64,000 nt of DNA. Origin: Pantoea agglomerans (GTDB lineage Bacteria > Pseudomonadota > Gammaproteobacteria > Enterobacterales > Enterobacteriaceae). The notes below the pieces were generated by a model that saw only the letters and a program-made list of their open reading frames with translations, searched no databases and had not been told where the DNA came from. Both the position numbers and the translations under genes were made by a program. The stretch spans positions 1,798,001 through 1,862,000 of the forward strand of contig NZ_CP083809.1 in the NCBI RefSeq assembly GCF_020149765.1, read 5' to 3'. Position 1 is the stretch's first letter. Every line of letters starts with the position of its first letter. Below, one piece after another: positions 29,566 to 34,586 of the stretch.

Positions 29566-30266
29566 ATGCTGGAACAACTCAAACAGCAGGTTCTGGAAGC
29601 GAACCTGGATTTGCCGCGCTACAACCTCGTCACCTTTACCTGGGGCAACGTCAGCGCGGTGGATCGCGAGCAGGGCCTGCTGGTGATCAAGCCTTCAGGC
29701 GTCAGCTACGCCAGCATGCAGCGCGACGATATGGTGGTGGTGGATCTCGCCAGCGGTGCGGTTATAGAGGGCGACAAGCGCCCGTCGTCCGATACCGCTA
29801 CCCACCGCGCGCTCTATCTGGCGTGGCCAGAGGTCGGCGGCATCGTACACACCCATTCGCGTCATGCCACCATCTGGGCGCAGGCGGGGCGGGCAATTCC
29901 AGCCTGGGGCACGACGCACGCAGACGATTTTTACGGTGAGATCCCCTGTACCCGCGCCATGCGCGACGACGAAATTCAGCACGACTACGAATGGAATACC
30001 GGCGGCGTGATTATCGAGACCTTCGCCCAGCGCGATCTCTCTCCCAGCGCCATACCGGCGGTGCTGGTGAACTCGCACGGGCCTTTCGCCTGGGGAAGCG
30101 ACGCCACGCGGCGGTACACAGCGCCGTGGTGCTGGAGGAGGTGGCTTATATGGGGCTGTTCAGCCAGCAGCTGCGCGCCGATTTGCCCCCCATCAATCAG
30201 ACGCTGCTCGATCTGCACTACCTGCGCAAACACGGCAAAAACGCCTGGTACGGGCAAAAAGCGTAA
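29566..30266 (+). pseudogene. araD: L-ribulose-5-phosphate 4-epimerase, frameshifted
   Basis: The first frame (29566 to about 30105) is clearly Ara[28 protein letters not shown], zinc ligands in [27 protein letters not shown] and [10 protein letters not shown]. The expected end ([17 protein letters not shown] and [19 protein letters not shown]) is in another frame ending at 30266. One base appears to be missing near 30108-30113 (GACGCCACGCGGCGGTACAC, where DA..AVH is expected). The first frame would run on to 30288 with an unrelated 57-residue tail. The enzyme interconverts L-ribulose-5-P and D-xylulose-5-P. There is no araB or araA beside it. A sequencing error is possible. Confidence 0.88.
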
Positions 30267-30597
30267 CCCGCCGCGCCCGCGCGCCTGAAAACACGCCAGC
30301 TTCATTAACGCAGGCGGCACGATCGAAAAGCAAAGCGTCCCGCGCCAGAGAAGCGCAGACAGCATTGCTATCGGTTATGCCGCCTGCGTTCGCATCGGAT
30401 CCAGCGCAGCGGACGAAGCCAATCCCTCTGGTATGGCGACGGCGGTCAAAATAACGAAACATACCCACAATAAAAAATAAAACAGCGTTTCAATTTTGTG
30501 GGGAGATCACTGTTTTCCGTCGCCGCCCCCCGTACTTTGCTGTCACGCCCTCGGGCATAAAAACGCACCTCCCTCTGGACAGCAAAGGTGATCCCTT
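30267..30597. other. araD-kdgT intergenic region
   Basis: About 330 bases, GC-rich on the left and AT-rich on the right. It contains the KdgR-like box at 30477-30494 and otherwise no recognisable element. Confidence 0.4.
30477..30494 (+). promoter_or_regulatory. Candidate KdgR operator upstream of kdgT
   Basis: ATAAAACAGCGTTTCAAT has imperfect dyad halves TRAAAC and GTTTYA around a short centre, like the KdgR boxes that control 2-keto-3-deoxygluconate and pectin genes in enterics. It lies about 105 bases before kdgT. Matched by eye only. Confidence 0.55.
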
Positions 30598-31721: not shown

Positions 31722-32588
31722 ATGACAGTAATTAACCAACCAACCTGCCGACTGTTCACCGAAGTGGGACAGACTACTCAACTTGCCGCGTACTACGAAG
31801 AGGGCCGCCGCACCATGTGGATGATGTTGCGGGCGCAGCCGCGCCCCAGCTTTAACCACGAATTAATCGAGGAGATCATGAACCTGAGCTATGCGGCACA
31901 GCGCTCCGGTCTGCCGATCGATTTCTGGGTCACCGGCTCGCTGGTGCCGCAGATGTTCAACGCGGGCGGCGATCTGCGCTTCTTCGTCGAGTGCATTCGC
32001 AACAACCGCCGCGAAGCGCTGCGCGCCTATGCCCGGGCCTGCGTCGACTGCATTCACTCGGCGGCGCGCGGTTTTGACACCGGCGCGGTGACGCTGGCGA
32101 TGATTGAGGGCAGCGCGCTGGGCGGCGGCTTTGAAGCCGCGCTGGCGCACCACTTTATCCTGGCGCAAAACAACGCCCGGCTCGGCTTCCCGGAAATCGC
32201 TTTTAACCTGTTCCCCGGCATGGGCGGCTACTCTCTGGTGGCGCGTCGGGCCGGTATGAAGCTGGCGGAAGAGCTGATATGCGAAGGGGAGTCGCACAGC
32301 GCAGAATGGTATGAAACGCGCGGCCTGGTGGACAAGGTGTTCCAGCCCGGCGAAAGCTACCGCTGCACGCGCACCTTTATCGATACGCTGCGGCCGAAGC
32401 TCAACGGCGTGCGCGCCATGCTGAAAGCGCGCCAGCGCGTGCTGCAGCTGTCGCGCGCCGAGCTGATGGATATCACTGAGGACTGGGTCGACTATGCCTT
32501 TACGCTGGAGCCGAAAGATATCGCCTATATGGAACGTCTGGTGCAGTTACAAAACCGCCATAGCGCATCCTTGCGTAAAGCGGGTTAA
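31722..32588 (+). CDS. rpfF: RpfF-type DSF synthase (crotonase family)
   Basis: 288 residues, the size of Xanthomonas RpfF (289). It shows the RpfF form of the crotonase fold: FNAGGDLRFFVECIRNN, EGSALGGGFEAALAHHFILA, ARLGFPEIAFNLFPGMGGYS, and SAEWYETRGLVDKVF. The two catalytic glutamates of the family (Glu141 and Glu161 in Xanthomonas) correspond to Glu138 and Glu158 here. Such enzymes dehydrate and hydrolyse 3-hydroxyacyl-ACP to cis-2-unsaturated fatty acid signals (DSF, BDSF). The convergent neighbour ending 12 bp away is an RpfR-type receptor, which supports the call strongly. Confidence 0.88.
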   Translation: MTVINQPTCRLFTEVGQTTQLAAYYEEGRRTMWMMLRAQPRPSFNHELIEEIMNLSYAAQRSGLPIDFWVTGSLVPQMFNAGGDLRFFVECIRNNRREALRAYARACVDCIHSAARGFDTGAVTLAMIEGSALGGGFEAALAHHFILAQNNARLGFPEIAFNLFPGMGGYSLVARRAGMKLAEELICEGESHSAEWYETRGLVDKVFQPGESYRCTRTFIDTLRPKLNGVRAMLKARQRVLQLSRAELMDITEDWVDYAFTLEPKDIAYMERLVQLQNRHSASLRKAG

Positions 32589-32600
32589 TAACGCGGAGTT

Positions 32601-34586
32601 TTAAACGCGGGCAGGATGCTTAGCCAGCCAATGCCCAAACTGTTCCGCGGGCATTGGTTTTGCGTAGAAGTAGCCCTGACGCCCGTCTACGCCGTTGAGG
32701 AGGACAAACTCTTCTTCCGCTTTCGTCTCGATGCCTTCGGCGATCACCTCCAGCGTCAGCGCCTTGGCGACGGCAACGATGGCGCGCACCAGCGACTGGG
32801 AAACCGGCTGCTCATTAATATTACGAATAAAACTTTGATCAAGCTTGATGGCGTTGATCGGCACGCGCGCGAGCTGCGACAGCGAAGAGTAGCCCGTGCC
32901 GAAATCGTCAAGATGCACCTGCGCGCCCAGCTCCTGGAACTGCTTCATCAGGGTCAGCGCCTGCGCTTCGTTCTCAATCAGGCAGCTTTCGGTGAGCTCG
33001 ATATCGATCGGGCACTCCGTCAGGCCGCTGTCCATCAGCGCCAGCTTGAGATCGCTGTAGATGCTCTGGTCAATCAGCTGTCGCGCCGAGACGTTGACCG
33101 CCACGCGCAGGTTAATGCCCTGTTCGCGCCAGGCCAGAATCTGCCGCAGCACGGTCAGCATCACCCAGCGGCCGAGCGGCACAATCAGCCCTGACTCTTC
33201 GGCATAGGGAATAAAATCGGCGGGCGAAACCATGCCGCGCTCCGGCGAATTCCAGCGCACCAGCGCTTCCGCGCTGCGCACCGCGCCGTCGCGATCGAGC
33301 TTCGGCTGATAGAACACCGTCAGGTGATCCTGTTCGAGCGCCTTGCGCAGGTTGGTGTCGAGCCAGAGATACTCAAACACGCGCTGGTTCATCTCCGCAG
33401 CGAAAACGCAGAACTTGCCGCGCCCGTTCTCTTTGGCGTGATACATCGCGGTGTCGGCGTTGCGGATCAGGCTCTCGCGGTCCTCGCCGTGCAGCGGCGC
33501 CAGCGCGATGCCGATAGAACAGCCGCTGTAGACTTCAATCAGGCCGATACGGAAGGGCTGGCGCAGGCGTTCGAGAATGCGCGACGCCATCGCCTCCAGC
33601 GCCGCCTGGCTGGTGTGCTCTGCCAGCACCACGAACTCGTCGCCGCCGAGGCGCGCCAGCGTCTGGTCTTTGCCCAGGCAGCTGAGGATCGCCAGCGACA
33701 CCGCCTGCAGCAGCTGATCGCCGAACATATGACCGTAGGCGTCGTTCACCTTCTTGAAATTATCGAGATCGAGGTAGACCACGCCGGTCTCATCCTCTTT
33801 CGCCAGCTCCAGCGCCAGGCTAATTTGCTGGTGGATCGCGTTGCGATTGGGCAAACCGGTCACGGTATCGGTGTTTGCCATCACCCGCAGGCGCTCCTGC
33901 GCCCGTCGCTCCTCGGTTATGTCCGTTCCGGAACAGATGAGGAAAATTTCATTTTTGCCGCTGCCGCTGTGAACGAACTTATTACGAAACAGAAAGAGTC
34001 GCTGGCCCTTACGGGTCTTCACCCAGCGTTCCACCTCATAGGAATTGCCGTCGCGGAAGAAGCCGGCGATATTGCGGCGCGAGGCGGCCGCCTCCTGTTT
34101 GGTCATAAACAGCTGAAACACGTTGCGGCCGATAACTTCGTGCTCGTTAAGGCCGGTGTACTCCTCGCTGAGGCGGTTAAAGCGCTGAATATTGCCGCGC
34201 TGATCGACAATCACAATCACCGAGTTGGCTTCAGATACCACCTGTTCGGCGAAAGAGAGGCCCTGCGTCAGATCGCGCGCGACGGCGGAGGTATCGCCCC
34301 AGGCGGAGGCGGTGCCGGCCCAGCTCGACTGGTTTACCTTGCGGCCGACAAAGTGCATCGGCACCGGCGTGCCGTGCAGCGGCAGCGTCAGGTTCACACT
34401 GGAGGTGATTAACGTCATGGCGCGCAGCAGGCTGGCCTGCGCGGGCGTCAGCGCAACGGCGATATTAGTGTGCGCGTTTTCATCCTCTGCGAAATGCAGG
34501 GCATCGCTGTCGGTGGTCAGGCGCCAATGAGGGCTGGTCGTGCCAAACAAGGTATACAGCAACGTTTGCCCTTGTTCATCGGTCAT
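32601..34586 (-). CDS. pdeR: RpfR/PdeR PAS-GGDEF-EAL cyclic-di-GMP enzyme
   Basis: 661 residues, exactly the E. coli PdeR (YciR, Gmr) length, and at the same locus beside rnb. Order: an N-terminal domain (about 1-90) corresponding to the RpfF-interaction domain of RpfR, a PAS domain (about 110-225, AEQVVSEANSVIVIVDQRGN), GGDEF (about 240-400, TVTGLPNRN and RLGGDEFVVLAEH, active motif intact) and EAL (about 410-655, AEALVRWNSPERGMV, ELTESCLIEN, LDDFGTGYSSL, AEGIET). In RpfR, BDSF binding to PAS turns on phosphodiesterase activity. Convergent with rpfF. rpfR would be an equally valid name. Confidence 0.93.
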   Translation of the reverse strand: MTDEQGQTLLYTLFGTTSPHWRLTTDSDALHFAEDENAHTNIAVALTPAQASLLRAMTLITSSVNLTLPLHGTPVPMHFVGRKVNQSSWAGTASAWGDTSAVARDLTQGLSFAEQVVSEANSVIVIVDQRGNIQRFNRLSEEYTGLNEHEVIGRNVFQLFMTKQEAAASRRNIAGFFRDGNSYEVERWVKTRKGQRLFLFRNKFVHSGSGKNEIFLICSGTDITEERRAQERLRVMANTDTVTGLPNRNAIHQQISLALELAKEDETGVVYLDLDNFKKVNDAYGHMFGDQLLQAVSLAILSCLGKDQTLARLGGDEFVVLAEHTSQAALEAMASRILERLRQPFRIGLIEVYSGCSIGIALAPLHGEDRESLIRNADTAMYHAKENGRGKFCVFAAEMNQRVFEYLWLDTNLRKALEQDHLTVFYQPKLDRDGAVRSAEALVRWNSPERGMVSPADFIPYAEESGLIVPLGRWVMLTVLRQILAWREQGINLRVAVNVSARQLIDQSIYSDLKLALMDSGLTECPIDIELTESCLIENEAQALTLMKQFQELGAQVHLDDFGTGYSSLSQLARVPINAIKLDQSFIRNINEQPVSQSLVRAIVAVAKALTLEVIAEGIETKAEEEFVLLNGVDGRQGYFYAKPMPAEQFGHWLAKHPARV

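Follow-up and report, generated by a model that had tools for sequence, protein, structure and literature searches.

We analysed a 64,000-nucleotide stretch of the Pantoea agglomerans contig NZ_CP083809.1 (positions 1,798,001 to 1,862,000; genome size 4.84 Mb), here called the window, for the pair formed by rpfF, which encodes a synthase of the diffusible signal factor (DSF) family, and rpfR, which encodes its putative receptor. We conclude with high confidence that the two genes are an ordinary and probably working pair of the Burkholderia DSF (BDSF) type, that the pair is ancestral in this part of the Enterobacteriaceae, that rpfF has repeatedly been lost, and that the sensor half of the receptor drifts thereafter. 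The identity of the genes, their domains and contact residues, the loss with its scars and the accompanying residue pattern are established at the level of sequence. The pair belongs to a known type and is unremarkable in Pantoea, and the convergent arrangement, the RpfF-interaction (FI) domain of RpfR, the inhibition of RpfF by it and the missing E. coli synthase have been described before (Waldron et al. 2019, PMC6361424; Suppiger et al. 2016, PMC4698668). What is new, as far as sequence comparison can tell, is the direction of change, which is now resolved, and the finding that the receptor changed repeatedly once its synthase was lost. The open-licence literature yielded no paper on RpfF/RpfR in Pantoea and, including the available parts of PMC5052742, PMC10333796 and PMC9285882, none on repeated rpfF loss or on decay of the FI surface or the pocket in E. 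coli PdeR, which is no proof of novelty. The features are as follows.

31722-32588, + strand: rpfF, 288 amino acids (aa), DSF-family signal synthase/thioesterase of the Burkholderia/Cronobacter type, with E138, E158, F44 and F88
32589-32600, no strand: gap between rpfF and rpfR, 12 bp
32601-34586, - strand: rpfR (orthologue of pdeR/gmr/yciR), 661 aa, FI-PAS-GGDEF-EAL; PRK10060, 1204 bits
34302-34586, - strand: FI domain, RpfR residues 1-95, match to 6dga_A
34500-34502, - strand: codon of A29, start of FI strand 2; invariant with RpfF, mostly replaced without it
34371-34373, - strand: codon of G72, turn between FI strands 4 and 5; pattern like that of A29, weaker
33903-34244, - strand: PAS domain, match to 6dgg_A (E 3.8e-57), contacts S169, N172, Y183, R187 and N202
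33402-33902, - strand: GGDEF domain, motif intact, residue 314
32637-33359, - strand: EAL phosphodiesterase domain, EAL at residue 440

An RpfF-type synthase faces its predicted receptor

rpfF and rpfR are convergent, with 12 bases between the ends of their open reading frames (stop codons counted), exactly at the coordinates at which the first-pass annotation of the window had placed an RpfF-type crotonase and a 661-residue PAS-GGDEF-EAL partner. The assignment of the 288-residue protein as a full-length RpfF-type crotonase is borne out. Its best solved relatives are Burkholderia cenocepacia RpfF 6dgn_A (E 4.9e-129, 433 bits) and 5fus_A (431 bits), Xanthomonas RpfF 3m6m_A reaches 151 bits and the 305-residue crotonase 7zq7 149 bits, and the best ordinary enoyl-CoA hydratase scores 56 bits, with the remaining hydratases lower. 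Phylogeny, which the annotation had named as a check, agrees: in a 13-sequence tree the protein groups with the RpfF proteins of Enterobacteriaceae and Burkholderia, far from FadB and FadJ of its own genome; next to this assemblage stands a distant group found in a different family of the order. Glutamates E138 and E158 are both present as the annotation had said; since Glu also occupies the two aligned positions in FadB and FadJ from this genome, these residues mark the crotonase family and are not diagnostic for a DSF synthase.

It is extremely improbable that the protein is an ordinary enoyl-CoA hydratase lying next to pdeR by chance. The Pfam family that it matches is ECH_1, most named database entries label it crotonase or enoyl-CoA hydratase, FadB and FadJ share its glutamates, and its score against the NCBIfam equivalog NF053515 (diffusible signal factor synthase RpfF) is 175 of the 550 bits required, so that it is not filed as a member. 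We take NF053515 to be a Xanthomonas-type model; the cut-off of PRK08788 is passed (409 of 177). Against a chance hydratase stand the gap between 433 and 56 bits, the position in the tree, the DSF synthase label that some JGI entries give to close relatives, the adjacency and co-inheritance with RpfR, and the FI residues that track the presence of the 288-residue protein (see below). Separately, nine genomes of one genus in another family of the order (L052-L060) carry RpfF relatives of 34-38% identity, with no RpfR match found within 1.5 kb on either side, and genome G661 (locus L213) has, in addition to the usual pair, a second RpfF elsewhere that is 73% identical to that of the window.

The N-terminal FI domain proposed in the annotation is present in RpfR. 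Residues 1-95 align full-length and without gaps with the Cronobacter FI domain 6dga_A (E 3.2e-26), and residues 115-224 match the Cronobacter RpfR PAS domain 6dgg_A at the E value given above. Like those of RpfF, these matches far exceed what chance would give. Beyond the GGDEF and EAL motifs, the further EAL-domain motifs are intact, as checked against the generally known letters of the GGDEF- and EAL-domain motifs. An AlphaFold2 model of residues 1-228 (overall mean predicted local distance difference test (pLDDT) 63.2, predicted template modelling score 0.47) is reliable in the FI part only (block-mean pLDDT 78-94, residues 11-90); the PAS half is mostly below 70 and its end below 50. The structure prediction, another check that the annotation had named, also finds the domain: a helix (7-14), strands 20-24, 29-33 and 40-45, a second helix (48-55), and strands 62-70, 73-85 and 88-94, that is, an N-terminal helix and six strands with one helix between strands 3 and 4. 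This is the FI topology described by Waldron et al. (PMC6361424), who report the strand 4-5 loop as buried in the RpfF complex. In our model, residue 29 starts strand 2 and the strand 4-5 turn contains residue 72. All five BDSF contacts reported for the PAS domain (S169, N172, Y183, R187 and N202; Waldron et al. 2019, PMC6361424) are present in the window protein.

By analogy with Burkholderia and Cronobacter, RpfF would dehydrate 3-hydroxyacyl-acyl carrier protein and free a cis-2-unsaturated fatty acid, probably BDSF-like, and the FI domain of RpfR would dock on RpfF and restrain it. Free signal would then bind the PAS domain and switch on the EAL phosphodiesterase, lowering cyclic di-GMP (c-di-GMP); in the Burkholderia and Cronobacter proteins, signal binding raises phosphodiesterase activity (PMC6361424, PMC4698668). 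We infer the enzymatic activity, the identity of the signal, the inhibition by FI and the activation of the phosphodiesterase in the window pair from these systems, and on the same footing the annotation's prediction of DSF-type signalling in this strain is reasonable. In C. turicensis, the biosensor was triggered only by a strain expressing rpfF from a plasmid (PMC4698668), so wild-type culture extracts may read negative.

The pair is near genus-wide in Pantoea and widespread in the family

The annotation knew RpfF/RpfR pairs from Burkholderia and Cronobacter, which is correct but too narrow, since the literature lists more and the pair is near genus-wide here and widespread in the family. 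Among 35 other genomes of the genus, RpfF is present in 34; the sole exception is a 2.4-Mb genome. The pair puts Pantoea among the likely users of BDSF-type signals. A draw of 295 genomes of the family contained RpfR (cut-off E <= 1e-150) in 100 and RpfF (cut-off E <= 1e-60) in 70, all 70 among the 100; 364 of 394 genomes in a draw from the order had no RpfF match. Convergent rpfF and rpfR were found in 80/80 named loci, these being the best 80 of 290 RpfF relatives. Across all loci with both genes the arrangement was convergent in 125/125 (in some cases the same genome from two sources), and the alignment ends were at most 100 bases apart in 121 and 1.5-6.3 kb apart in four. Two of these four were inspected (L214 and L183) and hold unrelated genes between rpfF and rpfR, by their look presumably a carboxymuconolactone decarboxylase-like and a LysR-like gene in one and a kinase-like gene in the other. 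One 25-kb record, given as a plasmid of Burkholderia ambifaria (L260), has rpfF beside an rpfR annotated in pieces.

The nearest named loci by RpfF, among the same best 80, are those of Pantoea piersonii, P. septica, P. latae and Candidatus P. deserta. Over ~20 kb of DNA, P. septica is the closest of these (93.0% identity), followed by P. latae (90.7%), P. piersonii (90.6%) and Ca. P. deserta (87.6%), by which the window strain is probably a Pantoea species separate from these four.

rpfF was lost, repeatedly, rather than gained

The annotation had left it open whether E. coli lost the synthase or the window lineage gained it. Tree, synteny, co-inheritance and scars together resolve this, on sequence grounds, to loss on the E. 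coli line, and gain falls away; they further suggest that the pair is ancestral here and that rpfF repeatedly disappeared, the line leading to E. coli, Salmonella and Citrobacter being one case.

First, the gene order in 15 named loci is lapB pyrF yciH osmB yciT yciZ rpfF rpfR rnb yciW fabI, and that of E. coli is lapB pyrF yciH osmB yciT yciZ (ymiD) pdeR rnb yciW fabI. The comparison of flanks across Pantoea, Erwinia and E. coli called for in the annotation gives the E. coli locus as the Enterobacter order minus rpfF. This order, together with blastn searches that matched rpfR in 5372 and rpfF in 0 of 5426 E. coli genomes, confirms that PdeR stands there at the corresponding place without rpfF. 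In the Pantoea and Erwinia relatives among the best 80, yciT-yciZ is mostly replaced by an araD-like gene, frequently accompanied by kdgT, and cstA mostly lies between rpfR and rnb.

Second, the receptor tree places RpfF at its root. From 157 receptor rows we dropped six of odd length (L066, L075, L169, L170, L171 and L197) and reduced the remaining 151 at 94% identity, keeping RpfF-less ones first, to 86 sequences, 67 with and 19 without RpfF. On the midpoint-rooted FastTree topology of these, Fitch parsimony gives presence at the root and 10 changes leading to 10 RpfF-less groups; after manual collapse of weak nodes the loss groups number 10, 10, 8 and 7 at support 0.7, 0.8, 0.9 and 0.95. 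Five genera (g33, g35, g172, g180 and g236) hold genomes both with and without RpfF.

Third, the two proteins have travelled together: RpfF and RpfR patristic distances correlate with r 0.83, a value reached by 0/1000 permutations. Of the 29 strong splits in RpfF, 26 are compatible and three incompatible with the strong splits in RpfR.

At last, some loci carry scars. Among 31 RpfF-less loci searched behind pdeR, L169 has only 2 bases left before the contig end, leaving 30 that count, and three of these contain rpfF fragments, one of them weak. The L160 remnant comprises RpfF residues 18-39 and then closely 271-288, next to an RpfR that is 98% identical to that of Enterobacter asburiae L134, which has rpfF. 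The L170 remnant comprises the RpfF start and then an apparent RpfF end (E 7e-4); its source, G445, is a 49% complete genome with a partial RpfR reading frame. The weak L161 match to the last 17-18 RpfF residues (E 0.07) was retained because these residues sit at the expected position of the rpfF end; a weak match in L163 (E 0.09), which concerns another part of the gene, was attributed to chance. No clear remnant was found in the other 27 loci, and no rpfF fragment in the pdeR-adjacent stretch of E. coli. The E. coli gene ymiD (L141, 7704-7832) occupies precisely the place where rpfF would have been, in the same orientation and overlapping the pdeR end; we rejected it as a remnant, its translation having no visible similarity to RpfF and no RpfF match at E 0.1 or E 1. 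In two further genomes, rpfF is matched only to residue 245 (G781, locus L238) or split in two frames (G719, locus L252), possibly losses in progress or sequencing errors.

The converse history, in which rpfF was gained beside pdeR in Pantoea, Erwinia and Enterobacter and never existed in E. coli ancestors, could draw on the many genomes without RpfF (225/295 in the family draw and 364/394 in the order draw) and on the 27 of 30 loci without a clear remnant. We consider it very unlikely. Most of the RpfF-less genomes also lack RpfR at the cut-off, given that only 100 of 295 have it, the 70 with RpfF included; parsimony puts RpfF at the root; gene order is identical around a precise gap; the RpfF tree largely tracks that of RpfR; collapsed rpfF fragments lie in situ; and Burkholderia has the same convergent pair.

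The putative docking surface of RpfR changes after rpfF loss

Once the synthase is gone, the receptor left behind seems to drift in its docking surface and, in many lineages, in its fatty-acid contacts, with the enzyme half staying conserved. Of 21 FI columns conserved at >=97% in the 67 receptors with RpfF, three fall below 60% in the 19 without: A29, from 100% (67/67) to 16% (3/19); G72, from 98.5% (one receptor with RpfF has Asp) to 37%; and S27, from 100% to 53%. No PAS, GGDEF or EAL column with >=97% conservation falls below 60%. Branches without RpfF make up 20.7% of the tree length (residues 115-655) and bear 30.0% of the changes in FI, 31.6% in PAS, 20.6% in GGDEF and 14.9% in EAL. The p-values of this comparison are uncorrected for the choice of columns and are not used as tests. 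Fitch parsimony assigns two of four events at position 169, two of 12 at position 29 and one of 11 at position 72 to branches with RpfF; those at 169 and 29 probably come from ambiguous inner nodes, no tip with RpfF differing there, and at 72 one tip with RpfF has Asp, as noted above.

The prediction for the FI residues was fixed before 40 further RpfR genomes from a larger draw were fetched as a held-out set. S27, A29 and G72 are kept in all 27 with intact RpfF and in both with a broken rpfF (G781 and G719), and in the 11 without RpfF, A29 is missing in 10, S27 in seven and G72 in six. Eleven of the 27 receptors with RpfF are >=98% identical to a training receptor (four are identical); without these near-copies A29 is kept in 16/16. 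None of the 11 orphan receptors exceeds 97.3% identity to the training set, and for nine the nearest relative is itself without RpfF. The held-out set is only partly independent, and the independent weight of the test is that of three genomes: G758 and G775, new losses inside genera with RpfF, which have V29 and D29, and G784, which has RpfF and keeps A29 although its nearest training receptor is RpfF-less.

These changes at A29, G72 and the PAS contacts might instead express a general fast evolution of RpfF-less lineages, unrelated to RpfF, which we regard as unlikely. The residues were chosen after the training data had been seen, RpfF-less lineages cluster, many held-out genomes have close training relatives, and the excess of the FI rate over the rest on RpfF-less terminal branches of a 38-taxon clade falls short of significance (permutation p 0.06). 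A general acceleration sits poorly, however, with the absence of excess in GGDEF and EAL relative to the branch share, with the confinement of column collapse to three FI columns, with a prediction that preceded the held-out data and was followed by altered A29 in both new losses, and with A29 and G72 being kept in two Burkholderia RpfR proteins.

The signal pocket often changes as well

Alanine mutants of four of the PAS contacts raised c-di-GMP in B. cenocepacia (Waldron et al., PMC6361424). These four are intact in 67/67 training and 29/29 held-out receptors with rpfF (broken in two of the 29), and unchanged in two Burkholderia receptors, in which position 183 differs. In orphan receptors at least one of the four is changed in 12/19 of the training and 7/11 of the held-out set, by S169A, N172Y/K/H/D or R187L and never at N202. 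Leu stands at 187 in all six E. coli strains, and the annotation's receptor-like PdeR without rpfF, correct as such, is thus more than partnerless: its FI surface and R187 are changed. L151 also has L187, and L158 of the same genus keeps R187. The Salmonella-type proteins covering position 172 have Y172, P0247 (named S. enterica) among them; P0243, of the same name, is without that stretch. All four contacts are kept in 7/19 and 4/11 orphans, the recent losses L160 and L161 among those that keep them, and all five in 115 of the 120 Citrobacter-type proteins listed from 2140 matches. Of 69 conserved PAS columns, 14 fall below 90% in RpfF-less receptors, so the pocket changes along with PAS as a whole and we claim no enrichment of contacts.

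We infer from the drift of FI and PAS that the receptors concerned have ceased to dock RpfF and to sense DSF. To judge from its residues, E. coli PdeR has probably stopped reading BDSF in the way RpfR does, and the Citrobacter receptor might still do so. The retained contacts in Citrobacter-type proteins and in L160 and L161 would fit an orphan RpfR that eavesdrops on the DSF of neighbours, rpfF loss turning producers into listeners; with at least one contact changed in 12 of 19 and seven of 11 orphans, and Leu at 187 in every E. coli strain compared, we find this rather unlikely. We favour, with moderate confidence, the reading that the pdeR/yciR genes of rpfF-less Enterobacteriaceae, E. coli and Salmonella included, are retired quorum-sensing receptors: after at least seven losses, the FI surface (A29, S27 and G72) and often the PAS carboxylate clamp would have been released, giving a signal-blind or re-tuned trigger phosphodiesterase.

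If so, FI residue 29 would reveal, from sequence alone, which RpfR proteins lost their partner long ago. The comparison also bears on what E. coli PdeR senses, its carboxylate-contacting arginine being missing in 6/6 strains; a response to dodecanoic acid (C12:0) is the subject of speculation in PMC6361424. More broadly, it offers a case, replicated across several lineages, of the fate of a receptor after deletion of its signal synthase.

Several of the results above weigh against our overall conclusion: the RpfF score below the NF053515 cut-off, the predominance of RpfF-less loci with no clear remnant, the terminal-branch rate test, the near-copies in the held-out set, and the orphan receptors, those of Citrobacter type among them, that keep their contacts.

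Neighbourhood of the pair in the window

A pattern scan of the region found 7 terminator-like sites against 3.7 in shuffles, none of them touching 32589-32600; the nearest listed site is weak and lies on the + strand at 32699-32718, within rpfR. The rpfF and rpfR transcripts may overlap. At 29566-30288 the window holds an araD-like gene for L-ribulose-5-phosphate 4-epimerase whose frame breaks after about residue 181 and continues in another frame. The gene is intact in near relatives, and the break may mark a pseudogene or stem from faulty assembly.

Comparison with known systems

The closest parallel is the pair of C. turicensis (6dga, 6dgg), which is convergent and has the FI-PAS-GGDEF-EAL order seen in the window (PMC6361424, PMC4698668). 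In its RpfR the five PAS contacts recur with identical residue numbering, and the FI domain aligns without gaps; activity is demonstrated there and predicted for the window pair. In B. cenocepacia, where the genes are also convergent, RpfF is 64% and RpfR 57% identical to those of the window, and RpfR keeps A29, S27 and G72, with Phe replacing Tyr at contact 183. Xanthomonas campestris RpfF (3m6m) is a crotonase-fold DSF synthase, related to the window protein by only 151 bits. Its DSF receptor is the RpfC/RpfG system (PMC4698668). E. coli PdeR (YciR, Gmr) occupies the orthologous place with the same domains and is 68% identical to the window RpfR, but it has no RpfF beside it and carries V29, E72 and L187.

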